Source of the DNA: a virus | Length of the DNA: 27,119 bases | IMG/VR virus record: IMGVR_UViG_3300035670_001071 | Coordinates: 1-27,119 of that record | Direction: 5' to 3' (one strand) | Part shown: piece after piece, positions 4,087-26,995 of the stretch | Numbering within the stretch: the first letter of the stretch is position 1 | How the letters are laid out: every line of letters begins with the position of its first letter | Program-made: the position numbers and the translations under genes | The notes under the pieces: generated by a model | Databases searched by the model: none | Seen by the model: only the letters and a program-made list of their open reading frames with translations | Told to the model about the DNA's origin: nothing

Positions 4087-4121
4087 CAATTAACAATTAA
4101 CAATTGACAATTAACAATGAA
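4087..4121. repeat. 7-bp tandem repeat (CAATTAA type), array A
   Basis: Five contiguous 7-bp units: CAATTAA, CAATTAA, CAATTGA, CAATTAA, CAATGAA. The array fills the whole gap between the broken small gene and the gp10-like gene. The ATG of the latter (4117) is part of the last unit, so the repeat replaces any Shine-Dalgarno region. Confidence 0.85.
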
Positions 4122-4587
4122 CATCGACGCCCGTATTTTGAAGAACGACCTTGCCAAGCTTGACCCGGCGCTGGTGAATACGGTATTGGCCGGGGTGGTG
4201 GCTTGGGCGGCGGGTAAAACGTCGAGCTTGGCGCGGCAAAAAGCGCCGAAGTTTACTTCCACGCTGGCGCAAAGCATCAAGCCGAATCGGCTGAATGATT
4301 TGCTGTGGGAGGTCAATGCCGGTCAACGCTATGCTGCCGGGCTTGAGTTCGGCGGCGGGCATCAGGGCGAGGCGCTGACATACCAACGGCTTTACGCGCT
4401 GGAGCAGTGGGTGAAGGGTAAAAACATTGAATCTGACCCGGTGCGAATCGCTTACGCGGCTTGGCATATTGGCAAGCACATCCAGGCGCAAGGCGTGAAG
4501 GAACAACCGTTCATGCGCCCGGCGCTGGAAGAAATCGAACCGCAAGTATTACCGCGTTTGAAACGTGAAATCGAGTCGAAATTATGA
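4117..4587 (+). CDS. HK97 gp10-like head-closure/tail-completion protein
   Basis: This 156-residue protein has the layout of HK97 gp10 family proteins: an N-terminal helix, a central KAPKFTSTLAQSIKP segment (the usual 'G.L..SI' region), EFGGGHQ (the usual E-x-G motif), and the C-terminal QPFMRPALEEIEPQVL (the usual 'PFLRPA' motif). The family acts at the head-tail joint or as a minor tail component. The start ATG lies in the 7-bp repeat and lacks an SD; no better start exists downstream before the conserved part. It overlaps the next gene by ATGA. Confidence 0.75.
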   Translation: MNIDARILKNDLAKLDPALVNTVLAGVVAWAAGKTSSLARQKAPKFTSTLAQSIKPNRLNDLLWEVNAGQRYAAGLEFGGGHQGEALTYQRLYALEQWVKGKNIESDPVRIAYAAWHIGKHIQAQGVKEQPFMRPALEEIEPQVLPRLKREIESKL

Positions 4588-6519: not shown

Positions 6520-6953
6520 GTTTCACTACCGTCATGGATGCCATCGTGATCGGGTTACAAGCCGCGTATCCCACGCGAATCGTGACCCGCGAACGGCGCA
6601 AGTGGATGCAGTACACGGACGCCGAAGCGAAGGCCGGTTTAATCGTGGTGAACTCTCGCGGTGCGACGTTCGATGACAGGTCAGGCGTGCATCAAATTCA
6701 AGCGGTGCTGGTGCAGCGCTTGACCGCAACAACCCCCGGCGAGGCGGTGACGAGTGAGCAAGTGGAAGAGGCCGAATTTAGTTTGTTTGACCAGTTTAGA
6801 ACTTGGGTCGATACCCACAACACCACCGGCCAAGATTGCGCCGTGGCCGGATTCATGTTGGATATTCGAGAGTTCACACAACCTCCCGCCGAGGCCAAGC
6901 AAGCAGCAACAGCCGTGGTTTTCGTTGAACTTGAGCGACCCATTTACCAATGA
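6516..6953 (+). CDS. Tail terminator/tail completion-like protein
   Basis: This 145-residue alpha/beta protein has ATGA overlaps at both ends. It starts with a helix (FTTVMDAIVIGLQAAYP), then beta-strands (RIVTRERRK) and a C-terminal strand (ATAVVFVELERP). The general plan and size fit the lambda gpU/Mu gp37-like family that caps the tail tube, and its place between head-closure and tube genes agrees. Sequence identity to a named family cannot be shown by eye. The gene at 7528 has a similar plan, so one may terminate the tail and the other complete the neck. Confidence 0.5.
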   Translation: MSFTTVMDAIVIGLQAAYPTRIVTRERRKWMQYTDAEAKAGLIVVNSRGATFDDRSGVHQIQAVLVQRLTATTPGEAVTSEQVEEAEFSLFDQFRTWVDTHNTTGQDCAVAGFMLDIREFTQPPAEAKQAATAVVFVELERPIYQ

Positions 6954-6982
6954 ACAATGAACAATTGACAATTGACAATGAA
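6948..6982. repeat. 7-bp tandem repeat (CAATGAA/CAATTGA type), array B
   Basis: Five 7-bp units: CAATGAA, CAATGAA, CAATTGA, CAATTGA, CAATGAA. The array contains the stop codon of the upstream gene (6951-6953) and the start codon of the downstream gene (6950). It is translated into the peptide MNNEQLTIDNE. Confidence 0.85.
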
Positions 6983-7195
6983 GAGCCTGGTTTTCCCGAT
7001 TGCGCCGGGTGGTATTGGTGTCAGGTGGGTGTGGTGAATGACGGTTTGCCGGACTTGGCAAAGGTTCACATCGACGAGTTCGACCGCCTGACGGCGCAGT
7101 TTTGCGGGTGTGAGCGGGAATTTACTGAAGATGAATTGCTGGATGCCCTGTGGCTTGGCCCGGTGCCGATGCCGGGTGCATTAATTGATAATTGA
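6950..7195 (+). CDS. Small cysteine-containing protein bounded by repeats
   Basis: This 81-residue frame starts at ATG 6950 in an ATGA overlap. Its first 11 residues are encoded by the 7-bp repeat array and its last residues and stop (IDN*) by another array at 7181. The core, about residues 13-75, looks like a genuine protein: FPDCAGWYWCQVG, then FDRLTAQFCGCEREFTEDELLDALWLGPVPMPG. A homologous gene without repeats would probably start and end within this core. Function unknown; it is a tail-module accessory by position. Confidence 0.5.
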   Translation: MNNEQLTIDNEEPGFPDCAGWYWCQVGVVNDGLPDLAKVHIDEFDRLTAQFCGCEREFTEDELLDALWLGPVPMPGALIDN

Positions 7196-7208
7196 TAATT
7201 GTTAATTG
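7181..7208. repeat. 7-bp tandem repeat (TTAATTG/ATAATTG type), array C
   Basis: Four units: TTAATTG, ATAATTG, ATAATTG, TTAATTG. This is the reverse-complement orientation of arrays A and B. It supplies the stop codon of the preceding small gene. Confidence 0.85.
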
Positions 7209-7527
7209 AAAAAATTTTATGAACCGCGTCGCTGCAAATCCTCGTTCTCCGTAAGCGCGACAACTCCAAAGTGGCGGCGCGGTTCGCCTGATTTTCTGGT
7301 ATGCAGGAAAGCCCTGCACTGCGCAACGTGTGGCGCATGTATAAAGGCCGTGCATTCTAAAATCGTCCACCTTAAGGCGCACACAAATAGAATGCCAGGG
7401 ATGCTAAAAACACCCGGTACACGGCGCGACGGAGAATTTCCGTCAATTTGATGGAGTTGCACCCATCACCAGACTTAATTTCGTCACCCTCTCCATCAGG
7501 GAGAGGGGACATAAGGAATTTTTTTAG
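7209..7527. other. Gene-poor stretch of about 320 nt between two repeats
   Basis: I find no convincing gene here. The stretch lies between 7-bp array C and a palindromic CCCTCTCC element. A frame with a TTG start at 7206 would give 81 residues with a cysteine cluster (CRKALHCATCGAC), and reverse frames are open over the same bases, but none has an SD or protein-like composition. A perfect small hairpin (GACGGA, 5-nt loop, TCCGTC) lies at 7428-7444. It could be a remnant of an inserted element, a decayed gene or an RNA. Confidence 0.4.
7487..7507. repeat. Palindromic intergenic element (CCCTCTCC type), copy 2
   Basis: Arms CCCTCTCC (7487-7494) and GGAGAGGG (7500-7507), loop ATCAG. This is a short copy without the GGGTGAGGGTG tail, just upstream of the SD for the gene at 7528. 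Confidence 0.75.
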
Positions 7528-7950: not shown

Positions 7951-7993
7951 CAATGACCAATATTGTTAATTGTTAATTGTTAATTGTTAATTG
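7937..7993. repeat. Back-to-back 7-bp repeat arrays, array D
   Basis: The left half has four degenerate forward units (CAATTTA, CAATTAG, CAATGAC, CAATATT; 7937-7964). The right half has four perfect reverse units TTAATTG (7966-7993). The two halves can pair into an AT-rich hairpin between the tail-completion gene and the tail tube gene. The array ends 4 nt before the tail tube SD. Confidence 0.8.
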
Positions 7994-8011
7994 TACAAAG
8001 GAGTTTTTACG

Positions 8012-9332: not shown

Positions 9333-11631
9333 TTTAGACCTTAAAATACGGATTTCAGCGGAGAATGCGGCGAGTGGTGAACTTGCTGATTTTAGCCGTC
9401 AAGCGCAAGCCGCCGCAAAAACTGCTGAAGGCGCGTTTTCAAATGCCAGTGATAAATTAAAAGACTATTTTAAGGGCATTGGCGACCAGGCTAAAAAATC
9501 CAGCGATATTGTTGAAAACGCTTTCAAAACTTTAGGCGTGCAATCATCGGCTGATATTGCTAAACAGAAAACCGCAACGCTTAATGCCTACCAAGCCATT
9601 AAAAACAGCGGCACCGCATCCGCCGCTGACGTGCGCAAAGCCTGGGTCGCGGCGCAACAGCAAATCGACAAGCTGGACGGCAAGCTGGAGCAAACCGGGC
9701 AAGGCTTTCAGAACGTCACCACTTCACTTGGTAGCCAGGTCAAAGGCTTGGCGCTGCAATTTGTCGGCATTGGCTCGGCGTTGTCGCTTGCCAGCGATGC
9801 CTTCAATCGGATCATGACCAATACCCAACTGGAAACCCGTATCAAGCGCGTGGTGGGTGAGGGTGAAGCGTTCGCCGAAACGAATAATTACTTGTCAGAA
9901 ACCGCTAACCGCTTGAATGCGGATTTGCTGGGGCTTAAGCAAAGTTACGCCGGGTATTTGGTGCAGGTGGAGGGCGGGTTAATCACCGTCGAGCAGGCGC
10001 GGCAATTGACCGAGGGCTTTGCCGAAGCGGCAGCGGCTTTGGGGATTGGGCAGAACCAACTAGCACAGGCCAATTACGGCTTGAGTCAAGCGCTGGCTTC
10101 TGGGATTGTGCGGGCTGAGGAATTTAACCAGGTCTTTGAGGCCACGCCAGGATTAATGCAAGCCGTCGAGCGGGCCAATGGGCTGGCTTCCGGGTCGTTA
10201 CGTCGTTTGGTTAATGATGGGAAAGTCACATCAGAGCAGTTTATTAACTACCTCATCCCCGGCTTGGAACAGTTCAAAGGCACGTCGGAAGATATGAGCG
10301 GCACCGCTGTTGCCAGCTTTGCCCGCTTAAGCAACGCCTTCACCGAGTTAGCCGTGGAATTGACCCCGGTGGTCAACTCGGTGTTATTGCCGACCGTGGG
10401 CGCGTTGATTGAGATTCTGAAGTTCAAAGATGAATTGACCGGCATCAACCGCTTGAAAGAGGGCATTAAAGCCCTGGACGAAGAAGGGGCGCAGCTTAAC
10501 GAGGGCCTGGCCGAATATAGCAACCGCTTAGCCGCTATCAATACCGCCACCGGACAAAATTACCAGACTTATATTGAAGCGTATCGAGCGCTTGGCGGGC
10601 AAACAGAGCAAGCCATTGCCGACGGGCAAAAGCGGATTGAGTTAGAAAACCAACTCGCCAGCGAACAAGCCAAGCTGGCTGAATTGACCAAGAAAAGCGA
10701 TAAAGAGCTTGCTGCCTCCAACAAGCAATACTTGGGCGAACTGATTAAAAACCAGACCGATTTCAATACCTGGAAACTCGCCGCCGTGAAGCTGACGGCG
10801 CAAGAGTGGGCGCAAATCGAACAGCAGGCAATTGATGAAATCAAGCGCTTGAACGAGTCGCTGGCCGATACCTTAAACGGCATTGACGAGCAGATACGCC
10901 AGAACCGCCGCAAGACCTTGACCGAGGCCGGACAACAAGCCGACATCGAAGCGGAGATTAACGAAAAGATTGCAGCGGCGCGGGAAAAATTAGCCGCTGG
11001 TGAAACCCAGGGCGCGGAAGAGCTTGCCAACACCGTGCGCAACCTGACGGGCAGCTTGAAGGACGTAGACAAGGCCAATGCGATATTGGAAAACCTTAAG
11101 CTGACCTTTGCCGAAATCAACGCCCAAAAAATCGAAACCGGCGCGGGTAAGGTGTTGGAAGCGGCGCAACTGGGTCAGTTCGATGTGAAAGCCGACATCA
11201 CCGCCGCACAGAGCGAAATCGCCAAGCTGCAAGCGGACCTGGACAAGCTGAAACAGCCCATTACTATCCCGGTGAATTTTCAAACCGCAGGCGCTCCAGG
11301 GTTCCGCACTGGTGGCCCAGTCCCCGGCTTCGCCACGGGCGGGCCTATCCCTGGCTATGGAGGCGGCGACCGCATACCGGCACTGCTGGAAGCGGGCGAG
11401 TACGTCATCAACAAGAAAGCCGCCGCCGCGTTTCGGCCTTTGCTTGACCGGATGAATTACGGGCCGGTGGCGAAGTTTGCGACGGGGGGGAGTGTCAGCG
11501 GGAAAGCTGTCAGCTTGGGCGAGTTCACGCTGAATCTTGCCAGTGCCAACGGTAACAGACGACTGACGTTGTTGGGTGAGCGGAATAGTATGAACGGGTT
11601 TTTAAGTACACTCGGCGAGCTTGGCAATTGA
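9322..11631 (+). CDS. Tape measure protein
   Basis: This 769-residue protein uses ATG 9322 (or GTG 9325; MSDLDLKIRI is the natural-looking start), overlapping the chaperone -1 frame. Residues about 170-365 (ETRIKRVVGEGEAFAETNNYL, then QALASGIVRAEEFNQVFE, then VNSVLLPTVGALIEIL) match the tape-measure domain seen in many siphophages. Long coiled-coil-like helices occupy about 370-640. A Gly/Pro-rich stretch (GGPVPGFATGGPIPGYGGG) precedes ALLEAGEYVINKKAAAAF, a common tape-measure C-terminal motif. The protein sets tail length; by the usual rule of about 0.15 nm per residue this suggests a tail near 115 nm. The stop codon lies in 7-bp array E. Confidence 0.85.
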   Translation: MVSDLDLKIRISAENAASGELADFSRQAQAAAKTAEGAFSNASDKLKDYFKGIGDQAKKSSDIVENAFKTLGVQSSADIAKQKTATLNAYQAIKNSGTASAADVRKAWVAAQQQIDKLDGKLEQTGQGFQNVTTSLGSQVKGLALQFVGIGSALSLASDAFNRIMTNTQLETRIKRVVGEGEAFAETNNYLSETANRLNADLLGLKQSYAGYLVQVEGGLITVEQARQLTEGFAEAAAALGIGQNQLAQANYGLSQALASGIVRAEEFNQVFEATPGLMQAVERANGLASGSLRRLVNDGKVTSEQFINYLIPGLEQFKGTSEDMSGTAVASFARLSNAFTELAVELTPVVNSVLLPTVGALIEILKFKDELTGINRLKEGIKALDEEGAQLNEGLAEYSNRLAAINTATGQNYQTYIEAYRALGGQTEQAIADGQKRIELENQLASEQAKLAELTKKSDKELAASNKQYLGELIKNQTDFNTWKLAAVKLTAQEWAQIEQQAIDEIKRLNESLADTLNGIDEQIRQNRRKTLTEAGQQADIEAEINEKIAAAREKLAAGETQGAEELANTVRNLTGSLKDVDKANAILENLKLTFAEINAQKIETGAGKVLEAAQLGQFDVKADITAAQSEIAKLQADLDKLKQPITIPVNFQTAGAPGFRTGGPVPGFATGGPIPGYGGGDRIPALLEAGEYVINKKAAAAFRPLLDRMNYGPVAKFATGGSVSGKAVSLGEFTLNLASANGNRRLTLLGERNSMNGFLSTLGELGN

Positions 11632-11651
11632 TAATTGTTAATTGTTAATTG
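11624..11651. repeat. 7-bp tandem repeat (TTAATTG type), array E
   Basis: Units GCAATTG, ATAATTG, TTAATTG, TTAATTG. The tape measure stop TGA (11629-11631) is inside the array. The rest of the gap to 11719 holds nothing else recognisable except the SD AGAGGGG for the next gene. Confidence 0.85.
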
Positions 11652-11719
11652 TCTACGGCTCTTGGAATGGGTAATCACCGCCGCGAGTTTGATTCTACGA
11701 GCGATAGAGGGGCGCTAAA

Positions 11720-12100
11720 ATGGCGAGAACATTAAACGGGACTGCCTTGCCAACCAATACGGATTGGGTTGACCGTTTTCAGCATGTGCCGGTGCGTCAA
11801 ACTAAACGCCGGACAACGGGCGGTGGCTTGGTGGTATCGGGTCAGAGCCTGATCGCCGGGCGTCCGGTTACGTTGGAGTGGGCGCGGGGTCGGCAGTGGT
11901 TGACCTATGCCAATGTGCAGACGTTGCAAGCGTTGGTGGATTCCGGGCCGGAAGCGGTGTTTAGTTTCGTTTGGGATGAATTGGTATATACTGTACAAAT
12001 TGATTTTGAACGCGGCGGGTTGCAGCTTGAGCAGCGCGGGTGGCGCTTGAATCCGTCGAATGATAAATTTTATGGGACGTTGGCGCTGTTTACGCGGTAA
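11720..12100 (+). CDS. Small tail protein after tape measure
   Basis: This 126-residue protein starts at ATG 11720 with AGAGGGG about 7 nt upstream. It is beta-rich, with an RQTKRRTTGGGLVVSGQSL segment, WARGRQWLTYANVQTLQALV and a final GTLALFTR. Genes in this position usually encode distal tail or minor tail proteins that link the tube to the tip. I do not recognise the exact family. The TAA stop is immediately followed by repeat array F. Confidence 0.55.
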   Translation: MARTLNGTALPTNTDWVDRFQHVPVRQTKRRTTGGGLVVSGQSLIAGRPVTLEWARGRQWLTYANVQTLQALVDSGPEAVFSFVWDELVYTVQIDFERGGLQLEQRGWRLNPSNDKFYGTLALFTR

Positions 12101-12150
12101 TTATTAATTATTAATTATGAATTATGAATGATTCATAATTCATAATTCAC
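12101..12150. repeat. AT-rich 7-bp repeat array F with long perfect palindrome
   Basis: Units TTATTAA, TTATTAA, TTATGAA, TTATGAA, then the inverted order. Bases 12113-12129 and 12131-12147 are perfect 17-bp inverted arms around one central G, able to form a hairpin or cruciform between two tail genes. Confidence 0.85.
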
Positions 12151-13783: not shown

Positions 13784-13886
13784 GCCCCTCTCCCTTGGGG
13801 AGAGGGGTTGGGGTGAGGGTGCTTGAACACGGCACATAGCCACTTCTAGCACCCTCACCCTAGCCCTCTCCCCAAGGGAGAGGGGA
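13784..13886. repeat. Facing pair of palindromic elements (copies 4 and 5)
   Basis: Copy 4 (13784-13822) and copy 5 (13848-13886) are the same element, of about 38 bp, in opposite orientations. Each has the CCCTCTCCC/GGGAGAGGG hairpin and the GGGTGAGGGTGCT tail. About 25 bp separate them, so the RNA could form either two small hairpins or one long one. The structure resembles a miniature inverted-repeat element and sits between two tail genes. Confidence 0.8.
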
Positions 13887-14970: not shown

Positions 14971-16572
14971 ATGACCGCGCCCAGCACCGATTTAAGCCTA
15001 TCACTCGACATCGAGCGGGCGTACTTTCAGCCGGAAATTGTGATTGAACCAGCCGACGATTTCACGCCTGTAATGTACTTCCCCTATTTGCCGATGGCCT
15101 TGCGGGAGGAATTGCCGCAAGCCTTGGTCGCTGAAACGTGGGCGGCTTATGATGCAGATAACCCGATGGAGGCTTTGCCGGAGGATTTTGGCGACGGGGT
15201 GGAGTACATCAACCTGGGCCAAACTGATGACGGGGTAGAATGCCTTAAGCAAACGCCAGCGCTTAAGCTGGCGCGATTCGGGCGGCAGGTGATACGGGTT
15301 TATGGGCCTTCTGAATACGATGATTGCGAGGCTTATGCATCTACCATGTTTGGCTGGGTGTGTTTGTCCGGAGGTAGCGATGTCGGCAACGACGAGAAGA
15401 TGATCGCGTATAACTCGGTCATTGCGGACTGTGTGGAGGCTGACAAAAACACCTACCAGTTGCCCCCGCTGCCAGAAACACAAGACGCGGGATACTACGC
15501 CGGACGTGGTGGGCGCTTTGATGTCAAGGCCAGCGACGGCAAACGCGACGGGCGCTTGCATCAATTGCAAGACAGCAACACGGGCGCGGGTAGCCAGTAT
15601 TATTTCCGCTTTAAGTTCGGCAAACAGGAATACAAGCGCATTTATTGCGTGTCTGGGAATCGCGGCAAGCACACCTTAACCAAGCAACTGCGCCGAATTG
15701 GCCGCCGTACCGCAACATTCCGCGAGGTGTTGAATTTTAACGGTGATACCGAGCAGACGATCCGGTATTGGTACGACGACCCGGCAGTATCAGTCATCAA
15801 CTGGACGCGCTTTTTGAAGCAGGACGGCACGTTTGCCGATGTGCGCCCGGTCAATTATTCGCCGGGTGATAAGTGGTGGAGCGATAGCTGGGCGCAACGT
15901 ACCGCCGCACGCCAGGGATACGAAGCCAAGCGGGGGAAAACCTTTTATTCTAAGGAGCCGGTATGGGGTTCGCTGGTGGTGCAGTACCAGGTCAGTTATA
16001 CCGCGTTCGAATTGTTCTATGACTTCCCAGACCCACGCCGCCCTTATGAGGTAGTGGTGGGTGGGATTGAGCGGGTCGGCACGCTGGTGAAGGATTATAA
16101 AAATGATGACGTGGTAAATAATTCCGCCCTGACTGATAACGACATCGGCTATGATTTCCAGAAAAAAGACAATGACTGGATCAGAGCGAATAAGAACAAG
16201 ACCGATTTTGACTACGCCAAAGCGCCGCACGTATACCTTAAGCTGTTCCCTAAAATCCGTTTCAAGCCCTACCGTGTGCCGAGTATCGAACTGTTCTACA
16301 CCAACGGCAAGCGGGTGGCAACGCGGGCATGGCAACCCCCGCAGCCTGAATTTATGGACTTGTCGCAAGAGGAACTCCCCAAGGTCGCTATTTTTGAAGA
16401 GCGCAAGCGCTACCGCCGTTATGCTGACGATGCGGTGAGTAATGCTGAGGACTATGGGGAATATGAACGGGTCATCGAAGCGGTATTTTTAGACCCGCTG
16501 GGCAATATCACGCGCCAGCGTTATGAGGAAGGCAACGACGCCACCGAGGACAACAGGCCGGAGCGTACCTGA
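14971..16572 (+). CDS. Unrecognised 533-residue tail-region protein
   Basis: The start ATG at 14971 follows a CCTCCCC tract and has no SD. The protein is acidic at its N-terminus (IERAYFQPEIVIEPADDFTP), rich in Tyr, Trp and Asp throughout, with notable segments YYAGRGGRFDVKASDGKRDG, WWSDSWAQRTAARQGYE and VVVGGIERVGTLVKDYKNDD. No signal peptide, membrane helix or known catalytic motif is seen. Its place between fibre genes suggests a tail-tip or receptor-binding role. It shares TGATG with the next gene, so the two are coupled. Confidence 0.5.
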   Translation: MTAPSTDLSLSLDIERAYFQPEIVIEPADDFTPVMYFPYLPMALREELPQALVAETWAAYDADNPMEALPEDFGDGVEYINLGQTDDGVECLKQTPALKLARFGRQVIRVYGPSEYDDCEAYASTMFGWVCLSGGSDVGNDEKMIAYNSVIADCVEADKNTYQLPPLPETQDAGYYAGRGGRFDVKASDGKRDGRLHQLQDSNTGAGSQYYFRFKFGKQEYKRIYCVSGNRGKHTLTKQLRRIGRRTATFREVLNFNGDTEQTIRYWYDDPAVSVINWTRFLKQDGTFADVRPVNYSPGDKWWSDSWAQRTAARQGYEAKRGKTFYSKEPVWGSLVVQYQVSYTAFELFYDFPDPRRPYEVVVGGIERVGTLVKDYKNDDVVNNSALTDNDIGYDFQKKDNDWIRANKNKTDFDYAKAPHVYLKLFPKIRFKPYRVPSIELFYTNGKRVATRAWQPPQPEFMDLSQEELPKVAIFEERKRYRRYADDAVSNAEDYGEYERVIEAVFLDPLGNITRQRYEEGNDATEDNRPERT

Positions 16573-17282
16573 TGAACACCGGGCGGGTGATTGGCGGCAA
16601 TATTCAAATGACGAGGCCGTTTGATAGGGTGTTGAGGTTTCCTGCTTTCCCAAAATTTATCGAAATCGAAAAAACTTTTGTAATTACCTATCAAGAAGTG
16701 GTCAGGGCATTTGGCGCGAAGGATGGAGAATGCTCTGAGGGGCAAACAACCGTCGGCAAGTGGTACACCTCTCATTCCCATTCACAAACAAAAACAAACA
16801 AGGCTGTTTTCAAGGTTTATAATTACGGCGTTGAACCAAAAAAACTGTTATTTACTGAAGAAGTGCTGCTTCCTGACTTTAGCATAAGCGTAAACTACAC
16901 AAATGCGGGGCCATTTGCCATTCCTTCAGTCTGCCAAATTTATGAGTTTCAAGGCGATATTGCAGTTATTTGTCCAGGTACAGACCCCTTTGAATATTTC
17001 GGCGGTGATTGCAACAGCATTACAATTGTAGGGTCTGGGTACGCCGTAACTTTTGCTAGTGGAACTAAAAATGGGTTTTCATTGTTAAGATATTTTGAGG
17101 TGAATTATCATGCAGAATACCCGCCTTATCCATGTGAAGTTATAGTAAATACATCAACAAGTAAACAAATACCTGTTTCTGAAAAGCTTTCTGAGTATAT
17201 AAACAGGGCGACGATTTTTACTAAAAAACAGGAAATAACGGGGTCTGATGGCGTCAGCTTATTTGACCCATGCTACTCATAA
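16572..17282 (+). CDS. Low-GC protein of unknown function in tail region
   Basis: This 236-residue protein has ATG 16572 overlapping the preceding stop. From about 16625 its DNA is clearly richer in A and T than the neighbours, with AAA, ATT and TTT codons dominating. It contains four cysteines (CSEG, VCQIYEF, VICPGTD, GGDCNSI) and a further PPYPCEV. The sequence is beta-rich and soluble. The composition shift within a coupled gene pair points to recent exchange of this module, as with receptor-binding parts. It is poorly conserved in feel and I do not recognise it. Confidence 0.45.
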   Translation: MNTGRVIGGNIQMTRPFDRVLRFPAFPKFIEIEKTFVITYQEVVRAFGAKDGECSEGQTTVGKWYTSHSHSQTKTNKAVFKVYNYGVEPKKLLFTEEVLLPDFSISVNYTNAGPFAIPSVCQIYEFQGDIAVICPGTDPFEYFGGDCNSITIVGSGYAVTFASGTKNGFSLLRYFEVNYHAEYPPYPCEVIVNTSTSKQIPVSEKLSEYINRATIFTKKQEITGSDGVSLFDPCYS

Positions 17283-18167: not shown

Positions 18168-21005
18168 ATGCCTACCGCTACGATATTTTCCACCCCCGGC
18201 ACTAACTCCCGCGCAGTATGCCGGTATGGAGACTATGTTTATTATGCCAACACTACGACAGTTTATAAACTACACAAAGATGGCGGTACACCTTCAACAT
18301 TTGCAAGCGGATTTAGTGGCATTTATTCGCTGTATCCAGATGCAAGCGGGAATATTTATGTTGCAGACTATTCAGCCAATTATGTTAAAAAGATAACTAC
18401 AGCAGGAAGTGTTTCTAATGTTGTCGCCGTAACTGGCTGCACTGGCGTTTTTGTCGAATCTAGCGGCGATTTATTAATTGCAAACTTAAGCACCGACAAG
18501 GTGCAGCGCTGGAATGGCTCAACACTAAATGACGTTGTAACAGCTTTAAATAACCCATTTTTCGCAGTATCCGACAGCGGCGGGAATGTCTATGTTGCGC
18601 AATTTGGGGCGAATGTCATCACCAAGTGGGATGGCATCAGCAAAACTAATTTGGCAAGCGTAGCTGGCGCGGCGGGAGTTGCGATAAACGGCAATGTCTT
18701 ATACGTCAGCAGCTACTCAGATAATAAAATAATTTCAATAAAAACAGATGGCTCAAGCTTAACAAATTACATCACAGGAATTACAGCGCCGCAACAAGTA
18801 ACAGCAGAACAGCGCTTATATATTGGCTCGGTAACAACGGGTAATATTTATCAGGCTGAATTGCCTCTGGCATCAGTTTCAAGATTCAACAGCCAATTCA
18901 CCCAAGCCAGTAGCGTTGCCGACAAAGCCAGCCATGCCGGGCAATTCACCCAAGCCGATAGCATCACCGACAAGGCCACACTTGACGGGCAATATAGCCA
19001 AGCCAGTAGCATAGGCGACAATGCTTGGCTTGGTGGTCAATTCACACAAGTCACTAGCATTGGCGATTTGGCAGGCTTTTACAGCCAATTCACCCAAGTC
19101 ACCAGCATCCCAGACCGTACCGCCATTGCGGGACAGTTCAGCCAGTTCCAAAGCGCACCGACTGAAGCGGCGATCACTTTGCCGTTTGTTGGGGCGCATG
19201 AGGCGGCGCTGCGGGTGCCGTTCGGGTCGCCGGTCGATGCTGCGCTTAGCTTGCCGTGGCGCTGTGCGATTGAGACCACGTTATATTTGCCGTGGGGTCA
19301 GGAAGTGGCGACCGAGGCGGCGCTGGTGCTGGCCTTTACCGGCACGCCGGACGTGGTGCAAGCCGTGCTGGCTTTGCCGTGGGCGGGTCAGGTACAAGCG
19401 GCACTCGCTTTGCCGTTTGGTCAGGAAGTGGCAACCGAGGCGGCGCTGGTGCTGAGCTTTGCCAGTACGCCGGACGTGGTACAAGCGGCACTGGCTTTAC
19501 CCTTCGCCAACATGACCCAAGCCGCGTTGGTGTTGCCCTATGGTCAAGAGGTAGCGACCGAGGCGGCGCTGGTGCTGAGCTTTTCCAGTACGCCGGACGT
19601 GGTTCAAGCCGTGCTGGCTTTGCCCTTCGCCAACACGACCCAAGCCGCGTTGGTACTGCCCTATGGTCAAGAGGTAGCGACCGAGGCGGCGCTGGTGCTG
19701 AGCTTTGCGGCAACGCCGGACGTGATACAAGCGGCATTGGCTTTGCCGTGGGCGAATCAGGTACAAGCGGCGCTGGTGTTGCCGTTTGAGTCGGTACGGC
19801 TTACCGAGGCGGCGCTGGTGTTGCCGTTTGGCTTTGCGGTGGTGGTAGAAGCGGCGATGCGCTTGCCGTTTCAGGCTCCAGACAAGGACATTATTCAAGC
19901 TGCATTGCCCTTGCCATTCGCCGGGGAACCGCCGACCACGACCGTTGTTACGCAAGAGAATTATCTTGTCCACAATGATCGCACGGTTCAAATATTGGAC
20001 TACGAAATTTCCAGCGACATCGACAGCCAATACTGGCAAGGCCGGGTGGTCTTGGCACGGCAAGCGGACTATGCCAGGATTCAAGCCGGTGACCAGGTCA
20101 CGCTACGAGTTCAAAATTTGGACTATCTCTTGATCGTGCTGTCCAGGTCTTACGGGGACAATGGCGATAGCGGCGAATTGAGTTTCACCCTGCGGGTTGC
20201 TTCGCCCGCCGTGCTGCTGGCCGATGAGGTGGTGTCTAAAATTTGGACGGGGCAAAATGCCGGCGACACGGTGGAAGAGGTAGCTGGTGTGGTAGTGGAT
20301 TGGGGCGTGGTGGATTGGCCTATCAAGGCCGGGCGCTTGATTGCCGACAGTGCCAAGCGCAGCGACGTGATCCGCGCCATTGCCGCCGCTGCCGGGGCGG
20401 TGGTGCAGTCGAACCCGGACGGGTCGTTGACCGTGGTGTATGAGACTGGCACGACGGCGTTTAATGCGCTGTTCGATGTCACGCCGGATGCTGTCTATAA
20501 TGACAGGCTGCATATTTTGGACTACACTGAAGACCAGCCGGAGGAGGTGTTCGACAGCATTATTATAACCGACGAAGAAGGCCGCGAAACGGGGTCACAG
20601 GCCAGTTATAACGCGGACTTTGCCAATACGGGGCAATATGTTGGGGTGTTGACGTTGTACGCCGTACCGTGGCGCGTATGGGGTTCGGATTTTGAACTTG
20701 AATGCACAGGCGATCCGAGTATCGTTTTGCGCAGTCCAAAAATTGAACTGGTCGAGGTCGAAGAGGTTGTCGAGCTTCAGGCCGGTCAAGGCAAGACGCG
20801 CTTCCCGGTGTATTCGAGTTTTCAGTATGAGTATCAGCACCGCAAACTGGGGGCGCTGGCTTGGGAGCAGGATAGTCAAACCCTCACCGCCGCCAGCGCG
20901 GGGTATAGCCTGGTGGTGGTGAAGTATTTGCGCCGTCGCTATGCGTTCCCGGTCGAGCATGGGTTGCAGGTGCCTGAATTGGCGCAGTTTTTAGTGGTGG
21001 AGTAG
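18168..21005 (+). CDS. Chimeric tail-tip protein: beta-propeller, two repeat arrays, baseplate-hub-like C-terminus
   Basis: This 945-residue protein starts at ATG 18168 with AAAGGA 7 nt upstream. Residues 1-240 carry repeated blades (NIYVADYSANYVKKIT; NVYVAQFGANVITKWDG) of an NHL/SMP-30-like propeller. Residues 243-330 are 16-residue repeats of the form QFTQxxSIxDxAxxxG. Residues about 330-590 are LPF-rich repeats with a 41-residue unit (EAALVLSFxxTPDVVQA...). From about 590 to the end (QNYLVHN-like start, WQGRVVLARQADYARIQAGD, AAAAGAVVQSNPDGSLTVVY) the sequence resembles tail-hub proteins of the gp27/gpD type. No signal peptide is seen. It probably forms the tail tip with an exposed adhesin arm. 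The propeller DNA is more AT-rich than the hub part. Confidence 0.65.
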   Translation: MPTATIFSTPGTNSRAVCRYGDYVYYANTTTVYKLHKDGGTPSTFASGFSGIYSLYPDASGNIYVADYSANYVKKITTAGSVSNVVAVTGCTGVFVESSGDLLIANLSTDKVQRWNGSTLNDVVTALNNPFFAVSDSGGNVYVAQFGANVITKWDGISKTNLASVAGAAGVAINGNVLYVSSYSDNKIISIKTDGSSLTNYITGITAPQQVTAEQRLYIGSVTTGNIYQAELPLASVSRFNSQFTQASSVADKASHAGQFTQADSITDKATLDGQYSQASSIGDNAWLGGQFTQVTSIGDLAGFYSQFTQVTSIPDRTAIAGQFSQFQSAPTEAAITLPFVGAHEAALRVPFGSPVDAALSLPWRCAIETTLYLPWGQEVATEAALVLAFTGTPDVVQAVLALPWAGQVQAALALPFGQEVATEAALVLSFASTPDVVQAALALPFANMTQAALVLPYGQEVATEAALVLSFSSTPDVVQAVLALPFANTTQAALVLPYGQEVATEAALVLSFAATPDVIQAALALPWANQVQAALVLPFESVRLTEAALVLPFGFAVVVEAAMRLPFQAPDKDIIQAALPLPFAGEPPTTTVVTQENYLVHNDRTVQILDYEISSDIDSQYWQGRVVLARQADYARIQAGDQVTLRVQNLDYLLIVLSRSYGDNGDSGELSFTLRVASPAVLLADEVVSKIWTGQNAGDTVEEVAGVVVDWGVVDWPIKAGRLIADSAKRSDVIRAIAAAAGAVVQSNPDGSLTVVYETGTTAFNALFDVTPDAVYNDRLHILDYTEDQPEEVFDSIIITDEEGRETGSQASYNADFANTGQYVGVLTLYAVPWRVWGSDFELECTGDPSIVLRSPKIELVEVEEVVELQAGQGKTRFPVYSSFQYEYQHRKLGALAWEQDSQTLTAASAGYSLVVVKYLRRRYAFPVEHGLQVPELAQFLVVE
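18894..19181 (+). repeat. 48-bp coding repeat (six units, the last degenerate)
   Basis: Units start at 18894, 18942, 18990, 19038, 19086 and 19134, exactly 48 bp apart, each opening with a Gln codon and encoding QFTQ or a variant. Units have diverged at DNA level, so the array is older than the 123-bp array downstream. Confidence 0.85.
19314..19805 (+). repeat. 123-bp coding tandem repeat (four units)
   Basis: Units start at 19314, 19437, 19560 and 19683, with a partial unit from 19806. Each encodes 41 residues with the pattern EAALVL, then TPDVVQA, then LALPF, then QEVAT. Unit DNA is very similar, especially units 2 to 4, which suggests recent expansion and possible length variation. Confidence 0.85.
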
Positions 21006-21083: not shown

Positions 21084-21096
21084 AAAAAGAGAAATC

Positions 21097-21131
21097 ACCA
21101 TTTACCATTCACCATTCACCATTCACCATTA
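21097..21131. repeat. 7-bp tandem repeat (ACCATTC type), array G
   Basis: Five units: ACCATTT, ACCATTC, ACCATTC, ACCATTC, ACCATTA. The period is the same as in the other arrays but the sequence differs. It sits upstream of the GAGGT SD of the next gene. Confidence 0.85.
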
Positions 21132-22330: not shown

Positions 22331-22331
22331 A

Positions 22332-22397
22332 CAATTAACAATTGACAGTTATCAATTGTCAATTGTTAATTATTAATTATTAATTATTAATTATTAA
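22332..22397. repeat. 7-bp tandem repeat array H with 15-bp perfect stem
   Basis: Units run CAATTAA, CAATTGA, CAGTTAT, CAATTGT, CAATTGT, then four TAATTAT. Bases 22333-22347 and 22357-22371 are perfect 15-bp inverted arms with a 9-nt loop. The array separates the convergent tail and portal genes and supplies the stop codon of the portal gene. It could act as a two-way transcript end. Confidence 0.85.
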
Positions 22398-23758
22398 TTG
22401 CTGATGTCAGTGCGGGAATGGCCGCGGCCTGCCGCTTCTGGGCTGACGGTGACTTTGGGTTGTTTGGTGGCCGGGCCGTTGTTGGTGGTGATGGTTTGCG
22501 GGGGAAAAAACGCTTCTGGGTTGGCGTCTTCGGCGCGGACTAACTCTTGGATTTCCGCTGGATTGAAGCCGCGAGTCCGGATTACGGTTGTGCGTGGCAT
22601 CCCCAGGGCTTGATCTTTGAGAGCAAGGTCTGCACGTTGGTTGTCGGATAGGGTTCGGGGTTCGTTGTACTCGACGTAAAAATCATAGTTCAGCGGGTCG
22701 ATACACTTGAGGGCCAATTGGATTTCAAAGGCTTCTTGGTAGACCGTCGCGATGTGTTCCTGGTAGGCATCGACTTCGACAAAAAAGGCATCCTTTAGCT
22801 CTTGCAGCACGTCGCGGGAAAGCTCTTGGCCCCAACCGAACAGGCCGGAAGGCGCGGGGGCGGAGGCGAAAAAGATGTTCATGAGGTGGATCACGTCGCC
22901 GATGTCGGACAGGGCCGCGTCGCCTTGGACGGGTTGAATCGCGCCTTTGCGGTTCATGAAGTAGTCGGTGTCGTGGCCTTGGTATTGGTTGGCCTCGATG
23001 GTTTGCCGGTAGGCTTCAAGCTCTTCGGTGGTCACGCCTTCCATGATGTGCGCCAGGCGCAGGCTGGCGCGGGATGCCCGCCGCTGCACCAGTTTCTCTT
23101 CGGAAAAAATCAGCTTTTCATACACGTCGCGGGAGGCATCGAGCATGGGACGGCCAAACGCGCCGAGGTCGTCGTAGTTGGGCGGGTCTAGGCGGGCGAG
23201 GAGCAGGGTGCCGAGGCTGAAGGTGGTCTCGGCAAAGCCGTTGTAGACATCCCACTGGATATAGGCTTTCTTGGGGTCGGGGATGCGTCCGCGTTCGTCT
23301 ACGTTGGGCACGATGGTATCAGCCGGAAGGGAGGCCAAGCCGGTGACGGTGTCGCCATCGGTGAGCAGTTCCAGGGCGAGGTTGCCTTGCAGGACGAATT
23401 GCCGAGCATCGCTTTTGAGCTTGGGGATGGTGTCCAGGCGTAACCGCCGCTGAAACAGTCGCCATTCGCGCATGATGCGGGGTTCGCGCTCCGCGCCGAA
23501 GAGAGAGAGGCCACCTTTGGCGATGTAGGTGGAGGTGTTGCTGTGAATGCGTTTGACGCGGGGATCGCCAACCTTGCCGTTTTGGCCGTCCATTTCGCGG
23601 ATTTTTTCGATTATCACGCGGAGGTCGGTGTCTACCCATGTGCGCCGGTAGAGGGTGCGCCAGGTGTCTGCGGGTTTGACCGCGTTGCCGTATTGGCCGC
23701 GTTTGGTGTTGCGGTCGGTGTAGCCGGGGGGGAGGATGATGGTCGGGGTGGTGTTCAT
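22394..23758 (-). CDS. Portal protein, on the opposite strand
   Basis: This 454-residue protein has its reverse-strand ATG at 23756-23758, with AGG about 8 nt upstream. Features of a portal are clear: TLYRRTWVDTDLRVIIEKIR near the start, LEKLxxR-like EEKLVQRRASRASLRLAHIM at about 230, AALSDIGDVIHLMNIFFASAP, a following GLFGWGQELSRDVLQELKDA and a long terminal helix. Portals form the ring at the head vertex and recruit the terminase. A single copy is expected between terminase and protease, but here it lies about 22 kb away from the capsid on the other strand. The stop codon is in array H. It could be a second portal or a relocated one. Confidence 0.75.
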   Translation of the reverse strand: MNTTPTIILPPGYTDRNTKRGQYGNAVKPADTWRTLYRRTWVDTDLRVIIEKIREMDGQNGKVGDPRVKRIHSNTSTYIAKGGLSLFGAEREPRIMREWRLFQRRLRLDTIPKLKSDARQFVLQGNLALELLTDGDTVTGLASLPADTIVPNVDERGRIPDPKKAYIQWDVYNGFAETTFSLGTLLLARLDPPNYDDLGAFGRPMLDASRDVYEKLIFSEEKLVQRRASRASLRLAHIMEGVTTEELEAYRQTIEANQYQGHDTDYFMNRKGAIQPVQGDAALSDIGDVIHLMNIFFASAPAPSGLFGWGQELSRDVLQELKDAFFVEVDAYQEHIATVYQEAFEIQLALKCIDPLNYDFYVEYNEPRTLSDNQRADLALKDQALGMPRTTVIRTRGFNPAEIQELVRAEDANPEAFFPPQTITTNNGPATKQPKVTVSPEAAGRGHSRTDISN

Positions 23759-23805
23759 GGCGCGTTACCTGGTTTAGAAAAGCTTTTTGAAATGGTAACA
23801 TTTTT

Positions 23806-23830
23806 AGTATATTTGGTATATACTATATAC
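23806..23830. promoter_or_regulatory. Two overlapping AT-rich dyads upstream of the portal gene
   Basis: AGTATAT-TTGGT-ATATACT (23806-23824) and GTATATA-C-TATATAC (23816-23830) are perfect 7-bp dyads sharing bases. They lie 48-72 nt upstream of the leftward portal start and could be an operator. The 9-mer TTTAGTATA here recurs upstream of the integrase gene. Confidence 0.4.
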
Positions 23831-23867: not shown

Positions 23868-23894
23868 AACCCGTCCGTGAGACGGGTTTTTTTT
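23868..23894 (+). terminator. Rho-independent terminator
   Basis: Perfect 8-bp stem AACCCGTC (23868-23875), loop CGTGA, GACGGGTT (23881-23888), followed by a T-tract to 23894. It points rightward with no rightward gene upstream, so it may end a short RNA or antisense portal transcript, or insulate the strong promoter just downstream. Confidence 0.75.
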
Positions 23895-23920
23895 GGCTTA
23901 AAAATTGGTGTTTTTTTTTC

Positions 23921-23949
23921 TTGACAGTCCTACAGGACTCTACTATAAT
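23921..23949 (+). promoter_or_regulatory. Perfect consensus sigma-70 promoter with operator-like spacer
   Basis: TTGACA (23921-23926), a 17-nt spacer and TATAAT (23944-23949), a full match to the consensus. The spacer holds AGTCCT-AC-AGGACT (23926-23939), a perfect 6-bp dyad that overlaps the -35 and would suit a repressor. A T-rich run lies upstream. It reads into the small gene set from 23996. Confidence 0.8.
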
Positions 23950-23995
23950 TTTAAGCCATAGGGTAAGTGATTTTTTTAACTGTCGGAGAAAGGTC

Positions 23996-24193
23996 ATGAG
24001 AACAGCATATTTCGCAACGCTTAACGAAGCTTTTGAAGCCATGAGCGCAAGCAAAGACGATTATGAAAGACTGATTGAAGCATGGGACGGGTTCCCGGTT
24101 AATTACGGTCAAAAAGTTGAACGATTTGGTATCACTGTTGAGCGTGATAATGATGGCTGGTATTTTTTACCTGAAACTGACGCGACGCTGTGA
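23996..24193 (+). CDS. Small early protein, 65 residues, unknown
   Basis: ATG 23996 has the SD GGAGAAAGG just upstream, and lies about 40 nt after the expected transcript start. The frame stays open upstream but this start is strongly favoured. The product is a mixed helix-strand acidic protein: FATLNEAFEAMSASKDDYER, then a GQKVERFGITVERDNDGWYF end. No known family is recognised. As first gene after a consensus promoter it is probably made at high level unless repressed. Confidence 0.65.
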   Translation: MRTAYFATLNEAFEAMSASKDDYERLIEAWDGFPVNYGQKVERFGITVERDNDGWYFLPETDATL

Positions 24194-24194
24194 C

Positions 24195-24392
24195 ATGCAA
24201 TTTACTTATGGCGAAAAACAACGCGCTGACGGTGTAGCAAAATGCCTGCGGGCCAATGGGTTTACGGTCAAATGCGAGAAACAAGCGCTGCTTTATAAAG
24301 TTACAGTGGACTGCCCCAAAGATGATGAGCAAACATGTAAGGGCATTGTAACCGGGTTTATTTATGCGTATGACAGGTATATTGACGCATGA
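24195..24392 (+). CDS. Small early protein, 65 residues, unknown
   Basis: ATG 24195 lies just after the previous stop (one nt gap), so it is probably coupled. Compact alpha/beta pattern: FTYGEKQRADGVAKCLRANG, then FTVKCEKQALLYKVTVDCP and GIVTGFIYAYDRYIDA. It contains four cysteines. No family recognised. It reads like a small accessory protein; an anti-host role is possible by context. Confidence 0.6.
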   Translation: MQFTYGEKQRADGVAKCLRANGFTVKCEKQALLYKVTVDCPKDDEQTCKGIVTGFIYAYDRYIDA

Positions 24393-24444
24393 AAAGATGG
24401 CTAAAAAACTCGCTACTCAATGCGGCGAGAGGGAGTACAAGCAA

Positions 24445-24633
24445 ATGATTAACGCACTAACATTGTTGCCATGCCCATTTTGCGGTAGTAAAGCGCATAC
24501 CCCGCCTGATGAAAGGGGCGTCGTTTGTACGCATTGCGGAGCAAAAATGCAGTATGACTTAGACCCAGAAAGAAAAATAGCGATAAAAGTTTGGAATACG
24601 CGGACAACACAGCATAATCAGGGGGAGCTATGA
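24445..24633 (+). CDS. Lar-like zinc-binding protein (restriction alleviation family), putative
   Basis: This 62-residue product starts at ATG 24445, chosen for AGGGAG (24430-24435) at 9 nt and because the family normally starts close to its zinc motif; longer starts at 24364, 24370 or 24397 are possible. It has LLPCPFCGSKAH, then VVCTHCGAKM and a closing KVWNTR: two Cys-x2-Cys pairs and the WN-x-R end typical of Lar-family proteins. In lambdoid phages such as Rac, Lar relieves type I restriction. It is coupled to the next gene by ATGA. The function is inferred from family pattern. Confidence 0.65.
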   Translation: MINALTLLPCPFCGSKAHTPPDERGVVCTHCGAKMQYDLDPERKIAIKVWNTRTTQHNQGEL

Positions 24634-24809
24634 TTGATAACCTGGGGAAACCAGAAAAGCGCCAAGCATACCGGGAAAGGACAGGAAAAACCAGCTATCC
24701 GCTGGAAGTATACGCAGACGATAATATCCGTATGAAAGCCTGGTTAAAGCGCGAAAAGCTGACCCAGGCTGAAGGGCTAAAAAAGCTGTTGGACTTGGCG
24801 AAAGCTTAG
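24630..24809 (+). CDS. 59-residue putative DNA-binding/regulatory protein
   Basis: ATG 24630 is in an ATGA overlap, with GGGGGAG 2-8 nt upstream; TAG stop at 24807-24809. The product starts MIDNLGKPEKRQAYRERTG and has a strand YPLEVYADDNIRMKAWL and a final helix LTQAEGLKKLLDLA. The basic N-terminus, strand and helices fit a small ribbon-helix-helix protein, though no family can be confirmed. A natural hypothesis is that it regulates the upstream promoter or the integrase. It is the last gene of the set and ends before a stem-loop. Confidence 0.6.
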   Translation: MIDNLGKPEKRQAYRERTGKTSYPLEVYADDNIRMKAWLKREKLTQAEGLKKLLDLAKA

Positions 24810-24825
24810 CCCTTACCATTCCCAC

Positions 24826-24862
24826 ATGACCGGACAGCCGCTCCGGTCATTCTTCCTTCTTC
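24826..24862 (+). terminator. Stem-loop between convergent small-gene set and integrase
   Basis: 9-bp stem ATGACCGGA (24826-24834), loop of 7, TCCGGTCAT (24842-24850), followed by a T/C-rich TCTTCCTTCTTC run. It is a likely rightward terminator for the small gene set. The integrase stop codon (24847-24849 on the reverse strand) lies within the right arm, so on that strand no T-tract follows. Confidence 0.55.
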
Positions 24863-25899
24863 TTTTCCTTCAAACTATTCAGCAACGCCTTGCCGGGTGT
24901 GAGCATGCCCTTGAACGGATTGGCGCGTTCCATTGCTGCCCGCGCCAGGGCCGTGTTCATGTGGTCGTAGATTTCGCTGGCCGCCGCCGTGTTGTGCGTG
25001 AGCAACTGCATCCGGGTTATCGTGGCGATGTCCGCTTTTGACAGGCTGAGGCCAAACAGGTGACGGAAAGCGTGAGGGTGAAGCCTGTCCTTGGGGATGC
25101 CCAGTTTTTCGCCCGCCGTTTGTATCATGACCCAGCATTGTTGCCGGCCTAGTCGCCGTTTTTCGCCGCGCCAGTCTTCTTCGGGCACGCGCCACGGTCT
25201 GACGGTGTTGGGAAATAACAACTTGTCGCCATTTTCGAGCAGGCGGTCGATGCTTTGCAGGTCGGGGTGGCCGAGGTAGGCCCGCATCATCACCCAGACT
25301 TCATCGAGCATAGGGATAATGCCATCGCTAGACTTATTGCCGCGCCGTTTCGTCACGCGGATGCTAAGTTGTTCGCCGTGACTGCCACGCTCAAAAATCA
25401 AATCCGATTCATTCAAACCCACCACTGCGCCAACTCGCAAGCCAGAGCAAAACAGCATGATAAGCAGGGTATCACGGAGGCCGATGAAGGTGTCGATACC
25501 ACGGGACATGATGAGCTTTTCAGCATAGCCGGGTTCGATATAGGTGGATAGTGGCTTGCCATATTGCGGGTAAGGTAGCTCTTCTGCGGGGTTGGTGATG
25601 CCTGTGCGAGATGAAAACCATTTATAGAACGTGCGAATCGCTGCTACATGAATGCGCCTGGAACGGGGTTTAACACCCTTTTGATGCAGATAGATACCAG
25701 CATAAGCATGTAGCTCTTTGGAGGTCATGAGGGCGAAATCGTGCTTACCTGTGAAGGCTTGCAGGTGCTTTAGTGTGGAGACATACCCTGCTACGGTTCG
25801 CTCAGATAACCCGCGATTATATTTCGCGTATTCCTCAAAGCCTTGAACCGTGCTAAAAAGCTCGCTCTGTTGCATTTTCGCTACTTTTCCCTTCAACAT
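24847..25899 (-). CDS. Tyrosine recombinase/integrase
   Basis: This 350-residue protein has ATG 25897-25899 (a start at Met9 is possible). The N-terminal part about 12-110 is a SAM-like core-binding domain (FEEYAKYNRGLSERTVAGYV). The catalytic domain shows Arg155 (CSGLRVGAV), Lys184 (TKRRGNK), His276-x2-Arg279 (HPHAFRHLFG), His302 (LLTHNTAA) and the nucleophile Tyr311 (IYDHM). It catalyses site-specific strand exchange between phage and host attachment sites, or resolves other DNA. It is convergent with the small gene set. No repressor or excisionase is obvious next to it. The small gene at 24630 may fill one of these roles. Confidence 0.9.
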   Translation of the reverse strand: MLKGKVAKMQQSELFSTVQGFEEYAKYNRGLSERTVAGYVSTLKHLQAFTGKHDFALMTSKELHAYAGIYLHQKGVKPRSRRIHVAAIRTFYKWFSSRTGITNPAEELPYPQYGKPLSTYIEPGYAEKLIMSRGIDTFIGLRDTLLIMLFCSGLRVGAVVGLNESDLIFERGSHGEQLSIRVTKRRGNKSSDGIIPMLDEVWVMMRAYLGHPDLQSIDRLLENGDKLLFPNTVRPWRVPEEDWRGEKRRLGRQQCWVMIQTAGEKLGIPKDRLHPHAFRHLFGLSLSKADIATITRMQLLTHNTAAASEIYDHMNTALARAAMERANPFKGMLTPGKALLNSLKEKKKEE

Positions 25900-26320
25900 T
25901 ACCTAAGTATTTAGTATAGTACATACGATACAGACTAAGCAAATACGGGATGTTTGGGGATTCGCGAAAAACCACACAAAAAGTAGGGACAACCGGGCGA
26001 GCGAGTTCAAAAAAGTTTTGTCTATGGATGATGTACCATCTACCATACTGGCAGCTTAAGTTATTGATATAGCTAGAATTTTTCTGGCTTGGTTTTCAGG
26101 ATACCGTCAAAAATACCCGCATTTAGGGAGCGCTTAAGCTTGGCTCACTGCCTAAACTAGACAGCACAAAGCACGGTGCGGTGCGCCTCTAGCGCTGTAT
26201 GTAGCGCTGAATGTAGCGATTAATACGGGGGTGGGTATTTGGCAGCGCAGGCGAACATAGGCCAGGGTATAGGTGGGTACTTCCATATCTACAGGGTTTT
26301 TAAAAACTGGAATTTTTCAC
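25900..26320. other. Non-coding stretch upstream of integrase and ParB-like genes
   Basis: About 420 nt between the divergent integrase and ParB-like genes with no gene found. It holds AT-rich TTTAGTATA (25910-25918) just before the integrase start, a GCTTAAGC palindrome (26132-26139) and 12-bp direct repeats at 26191-26226. Both genes should have promoters here. An attachment site is possible, but no core can be recognised from one end. Confidence 0.5.
26191..26226 (+). repeat. 12-bp direct repeats (AGCGCTGTATGT type)
   Basis: AGCGCTGTATGT (26191-26202), AGCGCTGAATGT (26203-26214) and a decayed third unit AGCGATTAATAC (26215-26226). Tandem units of this spacing suit binding sites for a regulator, recombination arm sites or iterons. 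They sit 95 nt upstream of the ParB-like start. Confidence 0.55.
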
Positions 26321-26995
26321 ATGCGAATATCAGATTTAAAGCCAGCAGCGTACAACGCTGATATAAGACACATCAGCGATACCGCTAAAAACGGCTTGGA
26401 AGCCTCTATAAGCGAGTTTGGCGACTTGGCAGGGATAACCTACAACGTGCTTACTAAAAACCTCGTAACAGGCCACCAGCGCGTTTCTAGGTTGAGAGAT
26501 AAATACGGTGATTTGGAAATTATAGACGGGGCGATTCGCACACCGGACGGCCACGTTTTCGCCGTCAGAATGGTAGAGTGGAGCGAATACAAAGAACGGC
26601 TCGCCAATATTGTCGCCAATTCGCCTGAGATTTCTGGCGTTTTCACGGCGCAACTGCCCGCGTTTATCGCCGAATTACCCGCTACCGGCAAGCAACCGCT
26701 ACGGATTCAGGAGCTCGCGGCAAGCATCAAGCTTTCCGCTGATTTTGTGGAAAATTCCTTGCAAGGTGATAAAATTAATGATAATACTCACGGAATTGAC
26801 GACCAAGCACCGCAACTGCCGCCTGATTTCGGCGCGGACATCGGCCACAGGCGCGACGACCGTGACGGGTGGCCGGTATATTTCATGCTGTCGCATGAAG
26901 ATTATCAGCGATTTAAGCAGGTATCCGGCAAAGACGCCGAAGCTTGGTTTTTGATGGTGTTGGACTACGCAGAAGCGGGTAAATTTAAGGAGTAA
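26321..26995 (+). CDS. ParB-like nuclease domain protein
   Basis: This 224-residue protein has ATG 26321 chosen; the frame is open 48 nt upstream. The N-terminal domain has the ParB/Srx pattern: MRISDLKPAAYNADIR, LEASISEFGDLAGITYN, then the central TKNLVTGHQRVSRLRDKYG. The rest has a VENSLQGDKINDN link and a C-terminal WPVYFMLSHEDYQRFKQVSG segment and AEAGKFKE tail. In phages, such proteins often lie beside DNA modification and terminase genes and may bind DNA or act as nucleases or ADP-ribosyl/nucleotide-dependent clamps. No partition partner is visible. The function remains open. Confidence 0.7.
   Translation: MRISDLKPAAYNADIRHISDTAKNGLEASISEFGDLAGITYNVLTKNLVTGHQRVSRLRDKYGDLEIIDGAIRTPDGHVFAVRMVEWSEYKERLANIVANSPEISGVFTAQLPAFIAELPATGKQPLRIQELAASIKLSADFVENSLQGDKINDNTHGIDDQAPQLPPDFGADIGHRRDDRDGWPVYFMLSHEDYQRFKQVSGKDAEAWFLMVLDYAEAGKFKE

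Follow-up and report, generated by a model that had tools for sequence, protein, structure and literature searches.

Phage morons are units flanked by a promoter and a terminator and having a deviating base composition (PMC4378225). Strong promoters of acr-aca operons contain inverted repeats inside the core promoter; the regulator gene lies 3' of the acr genes, and its product represses the strong promoter that drives its own expression (PMC9410906). The "restriction alleviation" name attached to the Lar family goes back, according to the paper in which the original report is cited (PMC5964084), to the work of King and Murray in 1995 on the Rac prophage, and later work established RalR, the Rac protein, as a DNA-cleaving toxin belonging to a toxin-antitoxin pair of type I (reviewed in PMC4147584). 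The locus described here comprises four tiny genes, one of them a member of the Lar family, behind a consensus promoter.

The window, which is the whole stretch of DNA analysed, is a linear virus record of 27,119 bases whose plus strand carries a capsid and tail module. The cassette lies near the right end, on the plus strand, between a portal protein gene (22394-23758, minus strand), from which it diverges, and a gene for a tyrosine recombinase/integrase (24847-25899, minus strand), with which it converges; a ParB-like gene (26273-26995, plus strand) follows. The integrase, placed next door to the cassette by the initial annotation, is recognized by Pfam PF00589 with E=6e-13 and is 35-37% identical to the integrases of related phages.

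A sigma70-type promoter, TTGACA-17-TATAAT (TTGACAGTCCTACAGGACTCTACTATAAT), is located at 23921-23949 on the plus strand and is preceded by an A/T-rich tract. The initial annotation described it as perfect, and it does match the consensus at 12 of 12 positions with a spacer of 17; it is the sole match in the window to TTGACA-N16-18-TATAAT, for which shuffled sequences give a mean of 0.01, and the second-best promoter site on either strand matches at 10 of 12 positions. The dyad AGTCCT-AC-AGGACT, likewise reported earlier, is present in the spacer at 23926-23939 as a perfect 6+2+6 palindrome that extends over the final base of the -35 box, and constitutes a candidate operator. An exact 6+6 inverted repeat with a gap of at most 6 occurs in 3.2% of the window's 29-mers, and because a comparable dyad is thus found in about 3% of them, the dyad alone provides modest support, suggestive and not compelling. 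Apart from a solitary AGGACT near 16450, its half-sites do not recur in the window, and they are never again paired. The combined promoter and dyad string is absent from the viral contigs searched.

Terminator-like hairpins close the unit on both sides, as judged from sequence, a point missed in the initial annotation. Upstream, AACCCGTC-CGTGA-GACGGGTT followed by a T run resembles an intrinsic terminator (23868-23895, plus strand); its stem (23868-23888) has 8 bp and a predicted energy of -12.1 kcal/mol, with a z-score of only -1.5. Downstream, ATGACCGGA-7-TCCGGTCAT with a T/C-rich tail (24826-24860, plus strand) forms a hairpin at 24826-24850 having a 9-bp stem and a z-score of -4.5, located where gene 4 and the integrase gene converge. 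Two further features precede the cassette. A promoter-like site matching at 9 of 12 positions (23795-23824, plus strand) lies ahead of the upstream hairpin (23868-23895), and no obvious gene separates them; the two might delimit a small RNA of some 65 nt. Within the portal leader, palindromes rich in A and T occur at 23807-23830.

The four genes, all on the plus strand, have the lengths of 65, 65, 62 and 59 residues given in the initial annotation. Gene 1 (23996-24193; ATG at 23996) is preceded by the ribosome-binding-site-like sequence GGAGAAAGG, and gene 2 (24195-24392) begins with an ATG at 24195, 1 nt past the gene 1 stop. Gene 3, the Lar-family gene (24445-24633; ATG at 24445), has alternative in-frame starts at 24364 and 24397, and its stop overlaps the start of gene 4 (24630-24809; ATG at 24630) in an ATGA, gene 4 being preceded by the ribosome-binding-site-like sequence AGGGGGAG. 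Purine-rich sequences of this kind are thus found 5' of genes 1, 3 and 4. Codon usage favors genes 2 and 4 as coding and is ambiguous for gene 1, for which frame +2 scores 0.088 versus 0.059 for the true frame; codon-usage support is absent for gene 3, but homology nonetheless shows that it is coding.

Gene 3 scores 40.3 bits against Pfam model PF14354 (cut-off 28.6) and 43.2 bits against NCBIfam model TIGR03655 (cut-off 39.6), and in the alignment both the four zinc-ligand cysteines of the zinc ribbon (CPFCGS...CTHCG) and the C-terminal IKVWNTR (WNTR) motif are intact. By these sequence criteria it is a genuine Lar-family member, sharing the Cys4 zinc ribbon CPFCGS...CxxCG, the (A)xKxWNTR motif and above-cut-off scores with the family, although it is only ~45% identical to the phage Lar proteins compared and far under the equivalog cut-off for RalR. 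Its match to the RalR model NF007260 (NCBIfam) is weak (E=2.7e-4, 21.5 bits), short of the cut-off of 113. The NCBIfam model for this Rac-prophage relative, which we take to be the product of the gene once called lar, now carries the name DNase toxin. Thus, of the initial description of a Lar-like zinc protein linked to restriction relief, the family membership (PF14354, TIGR03655) stands and the link is ambiguous; because the Rac member RalR has been shown to be a DNase toxin, membership in the family is a weak and ambiguous clue to the function of gene 3.

Searches of virus contigs, phages and plasmids, and of 369 sampled genomes of one class, revealed no relatives of genes 1, 2 or 4, an empty homology search being weak evidence for proteins as small as these; the two 65-residue proteins, genes 1 and 2, accordingly lack an assignment, as the initial annotation had stated. 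Single matches to the three genes at E~0.005-0.008 were set aside as chance at that search size, lying inside large ORFs or in stop-containing frames. The three genes also have no match to PADLOC, anti-CRISPR or other defence-related models. The structure prediction proposed in the initial annotation yielded a confident fold for gene 2 and a model for gene 4, with no significant fold match for either. The single-sequence AlphaFold2 model of gene 2 is beta-alpha-beta-beta-alpha with a pLDDT of 88; it resembles many ferredoxin-like folds, none at E<0.01, and a function was therefore not assigned from this resemblance. The monomer model of gene 4 consists of three helices (pLDDT 77), including residues 26-42 and 46-58, and has no strand; the C-terminal half of the protein is predicted to be helical, and no fold match in the PDB was found with Foldseek. 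Inspected by eye, the gene 4 sequence TSYPLEVYADDNIRMKAWLKREKLTQAEGLKKLLDLAK has a strand-helix-helix rhythm like that of ribbon-helix-helix repressors, which serves as a lead only to a small protein of this class. The RHH_1 model (PF01402) gave nothing at E<=10, and a CopB-type protein was rejected as the RepB-RCR_reg model had no match. Gene 4 has no match in Pfam, PHROGs or PADLOC; its one library match, to RepC_IncLM in NCBIfam at E=0.019, is below the cut-off and was not accepted. Rfam gave no match, leaving an RNA explanation unsupported.

Among sequenced phages, Microcystis phage vB_MaeS-yong1 is the nearest, with identities of 44% for the portal, 33% for the capsid and 35% for the integrase. 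A profile built from the two portals added 45 loci from virus contigs and another 6 from genomes of Proteobacteria. A tblastn search with all four cassette genes against 53 related-phage loci gave no match, and PF14354 gave two weak matches and none above cut-off among 28 related phage records. Because it is absent from these relatives, the cassette is, by sequence comparison, accessory in this phage group. Its four coding sequences together have 45% GC, versus a mean of 55.2% (SD 4.2) for 27 other phage genes, a difference that is not decisive alone because the gene at 16572-17282 is equally AT-rich. That gene, which encodes 236 residues in the tail region, has 41% GC, far under its neighbors, and this suggests that it is another recent acquisition. 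In the relatives the integrase, several genes, the portal and the capsid follow one another on one strand, with an integrase-portal gap of 4-7 kb; an exact empty site cannot be displayed because the gene order of the window differs.

Several further observations concern the rest of the window. Relative to the relatives examined, the portal gene (22394-23758) is inverted and split from the capsid gene, with the junction (22331-22399) on a heptamer-repeat hairpin, and the inversion (22331-23758) reflects either rearrangement mediated by the repeats or a chimeric assembly. Heptamers, mostly CAATTAA-like, are repeated in tandem at 4087-4123, 6948-6982, 7182-7209, 7962-7994, 11626-11652, 12098-12133 and 22331-22399, with TCACCAT as the unit at 21095-21130. 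These repeats recur where phage structural genes adjoin (an 18-mer is matched 14 times, versus 0.01 expected), and none occur in the 53 related-phage loci; they look like short tandem repeats of the host, and the prophage may have been invaded by them. Near-identical 13-bp tandem repeats of TTGGGGAGAGGGG lie between phage genes at 2348-2372 and 13795-13819 and are like an interspersed repeat of the host. A 123-bp tandem repeat of 4.3 copies (19287-19820) lies within the 945-aa tail gene.

Compared with the described systems, the cassette has, like the morons, what by sequence are its own promoter and terminator, together with deviating GC, a place between portal and integrase, and absence from relatives, whereas morons usually have one coding region and four genes are present here. 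In common with acr-aca operons, it has an inverted repeat within the core of a strong promoter (23926-23939), tiny genes, and a small possible regulator in last position, but none of the anti-CRISPR or Aca models in the scanned libraries matches it. A helix-turn-helix Aca repressor was looked for downstream and none was recognized, nor is gene 4 a recognized helix-turn-helix protein; because a recognized Aca regulator was sought and not found, the cassette is not classed as an acr-aca operon. The Lar gene also occurs within a run of genes of 63-82 aa in two unrelated virulent phages, Klebsiella phage VLCpiS13b and Salmonella phage vB_CECAV_048. As in the cassette, Lar is third or fourth in these clusters and the next gene overlaps it, and in VLCpiS13b the overlapping gene is annotated as a MarR-type regulator; in contrast, their other small genes have no detectable kinship to those of the cassette, and a consensus promoter with a dyad is lacking. 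The median length of neighboring ORFs is below 110 aa in 38 of 67 Lar-bearing viral loci, as obtained with a crude ORF caller and without a control. Among 80 Lar-bearing viral loci, none has gene 1, 2 or 4 beside Lar, and none has a promoter of the scanned form matching at 10 or more of 12 positions and holding an inverted repeat.

The features listed in the initial annotation are confirmed, and its interpretation of the cassette as a candidate anti-host-defence set is supported in part. The reading preferred here, tentatively and with a probability of about 45%, is that of a moron-type accessory counter-defence operon in a temperate tailed phage (prophage), with the promoter dyad under the control of a repressor. 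That the unit is flanked by terminator-like hairpins, low in GC and missing from relatives argues for an autonomous accessory unit, and the acr-aca-like layout, together with Lar loci rich in small genes, favors a counter-defence operon with feedback repression. In this mechanism, the four small genes would be transcribed apart from the phage's own programme from a strong, constitutive sigma70 promoter insulated by terminators, and their products would most likely blunt host defences upon entry of the phage DNA. The Lar-family protein may tip a type I restriction system toward modification and away from cleavage, and the products of genes 1 and 2 would act against defence through some form of contact. 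The dyad is most economically read as the operator of a small repressor, possibly the 59-aa product of gene 4, which would limit expression after an initial burst. Several findings weigh against this reading: RHH_1 and RepB-RCR_reg do not match gene 4 and its model has no PDB match, a dyad has a background of ~3%, another gene of the phage is equally AT-rich, none of the 80 Lar-bearing loci has a comparable promoter with an inverted repeat, and the Lar family includes the DNase toxin RalR. In addition, genes 1, 2 and 4 lack detectable relatives, so that there is no conserved sequence, layout or operator to lean on. A narrower version, in which the cassette is an autoregulated anti-defence operon of the acr-aca type encoding two new 65-aa immunity inhibitors, Lar, and a new minimal 59-aa autorepressor acting at AGTCCT-AC-AGGACT, is unlikely as a whole.

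Small genes clustered behind a strong promoter, and similar Lar clusters in virulent Klebsiella and Salmonella phages, are what would be seen if the promoter were an early-lytic one, with the dyad bound by the main CI-like repressor encoded off the contig and the four genes serving in ordinary early host takeover and not expressed in the lysogen; the immunity region may indeed be missing, the window being a linear fragment. Main phage repressors usually have several operators, however, and the half-sites are paired nowhere else in the window. Moreover, the unit comprises only four genes and is closed by a terminator-like hairpin; it converges with the integrase gene and does not run into replication genes. 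An early-lytic promoter is considered rather unlikely.

Alternatively, the unit might benefit or maintain the lysogen and have no part in counter-defence, for example as a toxin-like nuclease of the Lar/RalR type restrained by small proteins encoded alongside it. RalR is a toxic, DNA-cleaving protein (PMC4147584), lysogenic conversion genes typically form insulated units with constitutive expression (PMC4378225), and gene 3 does match the RalR model weakly, but its score is far under the RalR cut-off; furthermore, the antitoxin of RalR is an antisense RNA, whereas here Rfam gave no match and no antisense promoter was identified, so that a maintenance unit appears distinctly unlikely. A comparably slender chance is assigned to coincidence, the perfect promoter and dyad having come together by accident in front of random low-GC accessory ORFs with no joint function. 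The ~3% background of the dyad and the lack of any conservation to draw on are in keeping with an accident of this kind, but the concurrence of a perfect promoter (0.01 expected), compact coupled genes and flanking terminators, all within ~1 kb, argues against it.

If the locus is ordinary, it represents one further uncharacterised phage moron. If the counter-defence reading is true, it would provide a short and experimentally tractable list of anti-defence candidates tied to Lar by guilt of association, namely the pair of unrelated 65-aa proteins along with what may be a minimal repressor, and it would mean that Lar travels in an insulated accessory unit of a temperate phage group having genome-derived relatives in Proteobacteria.
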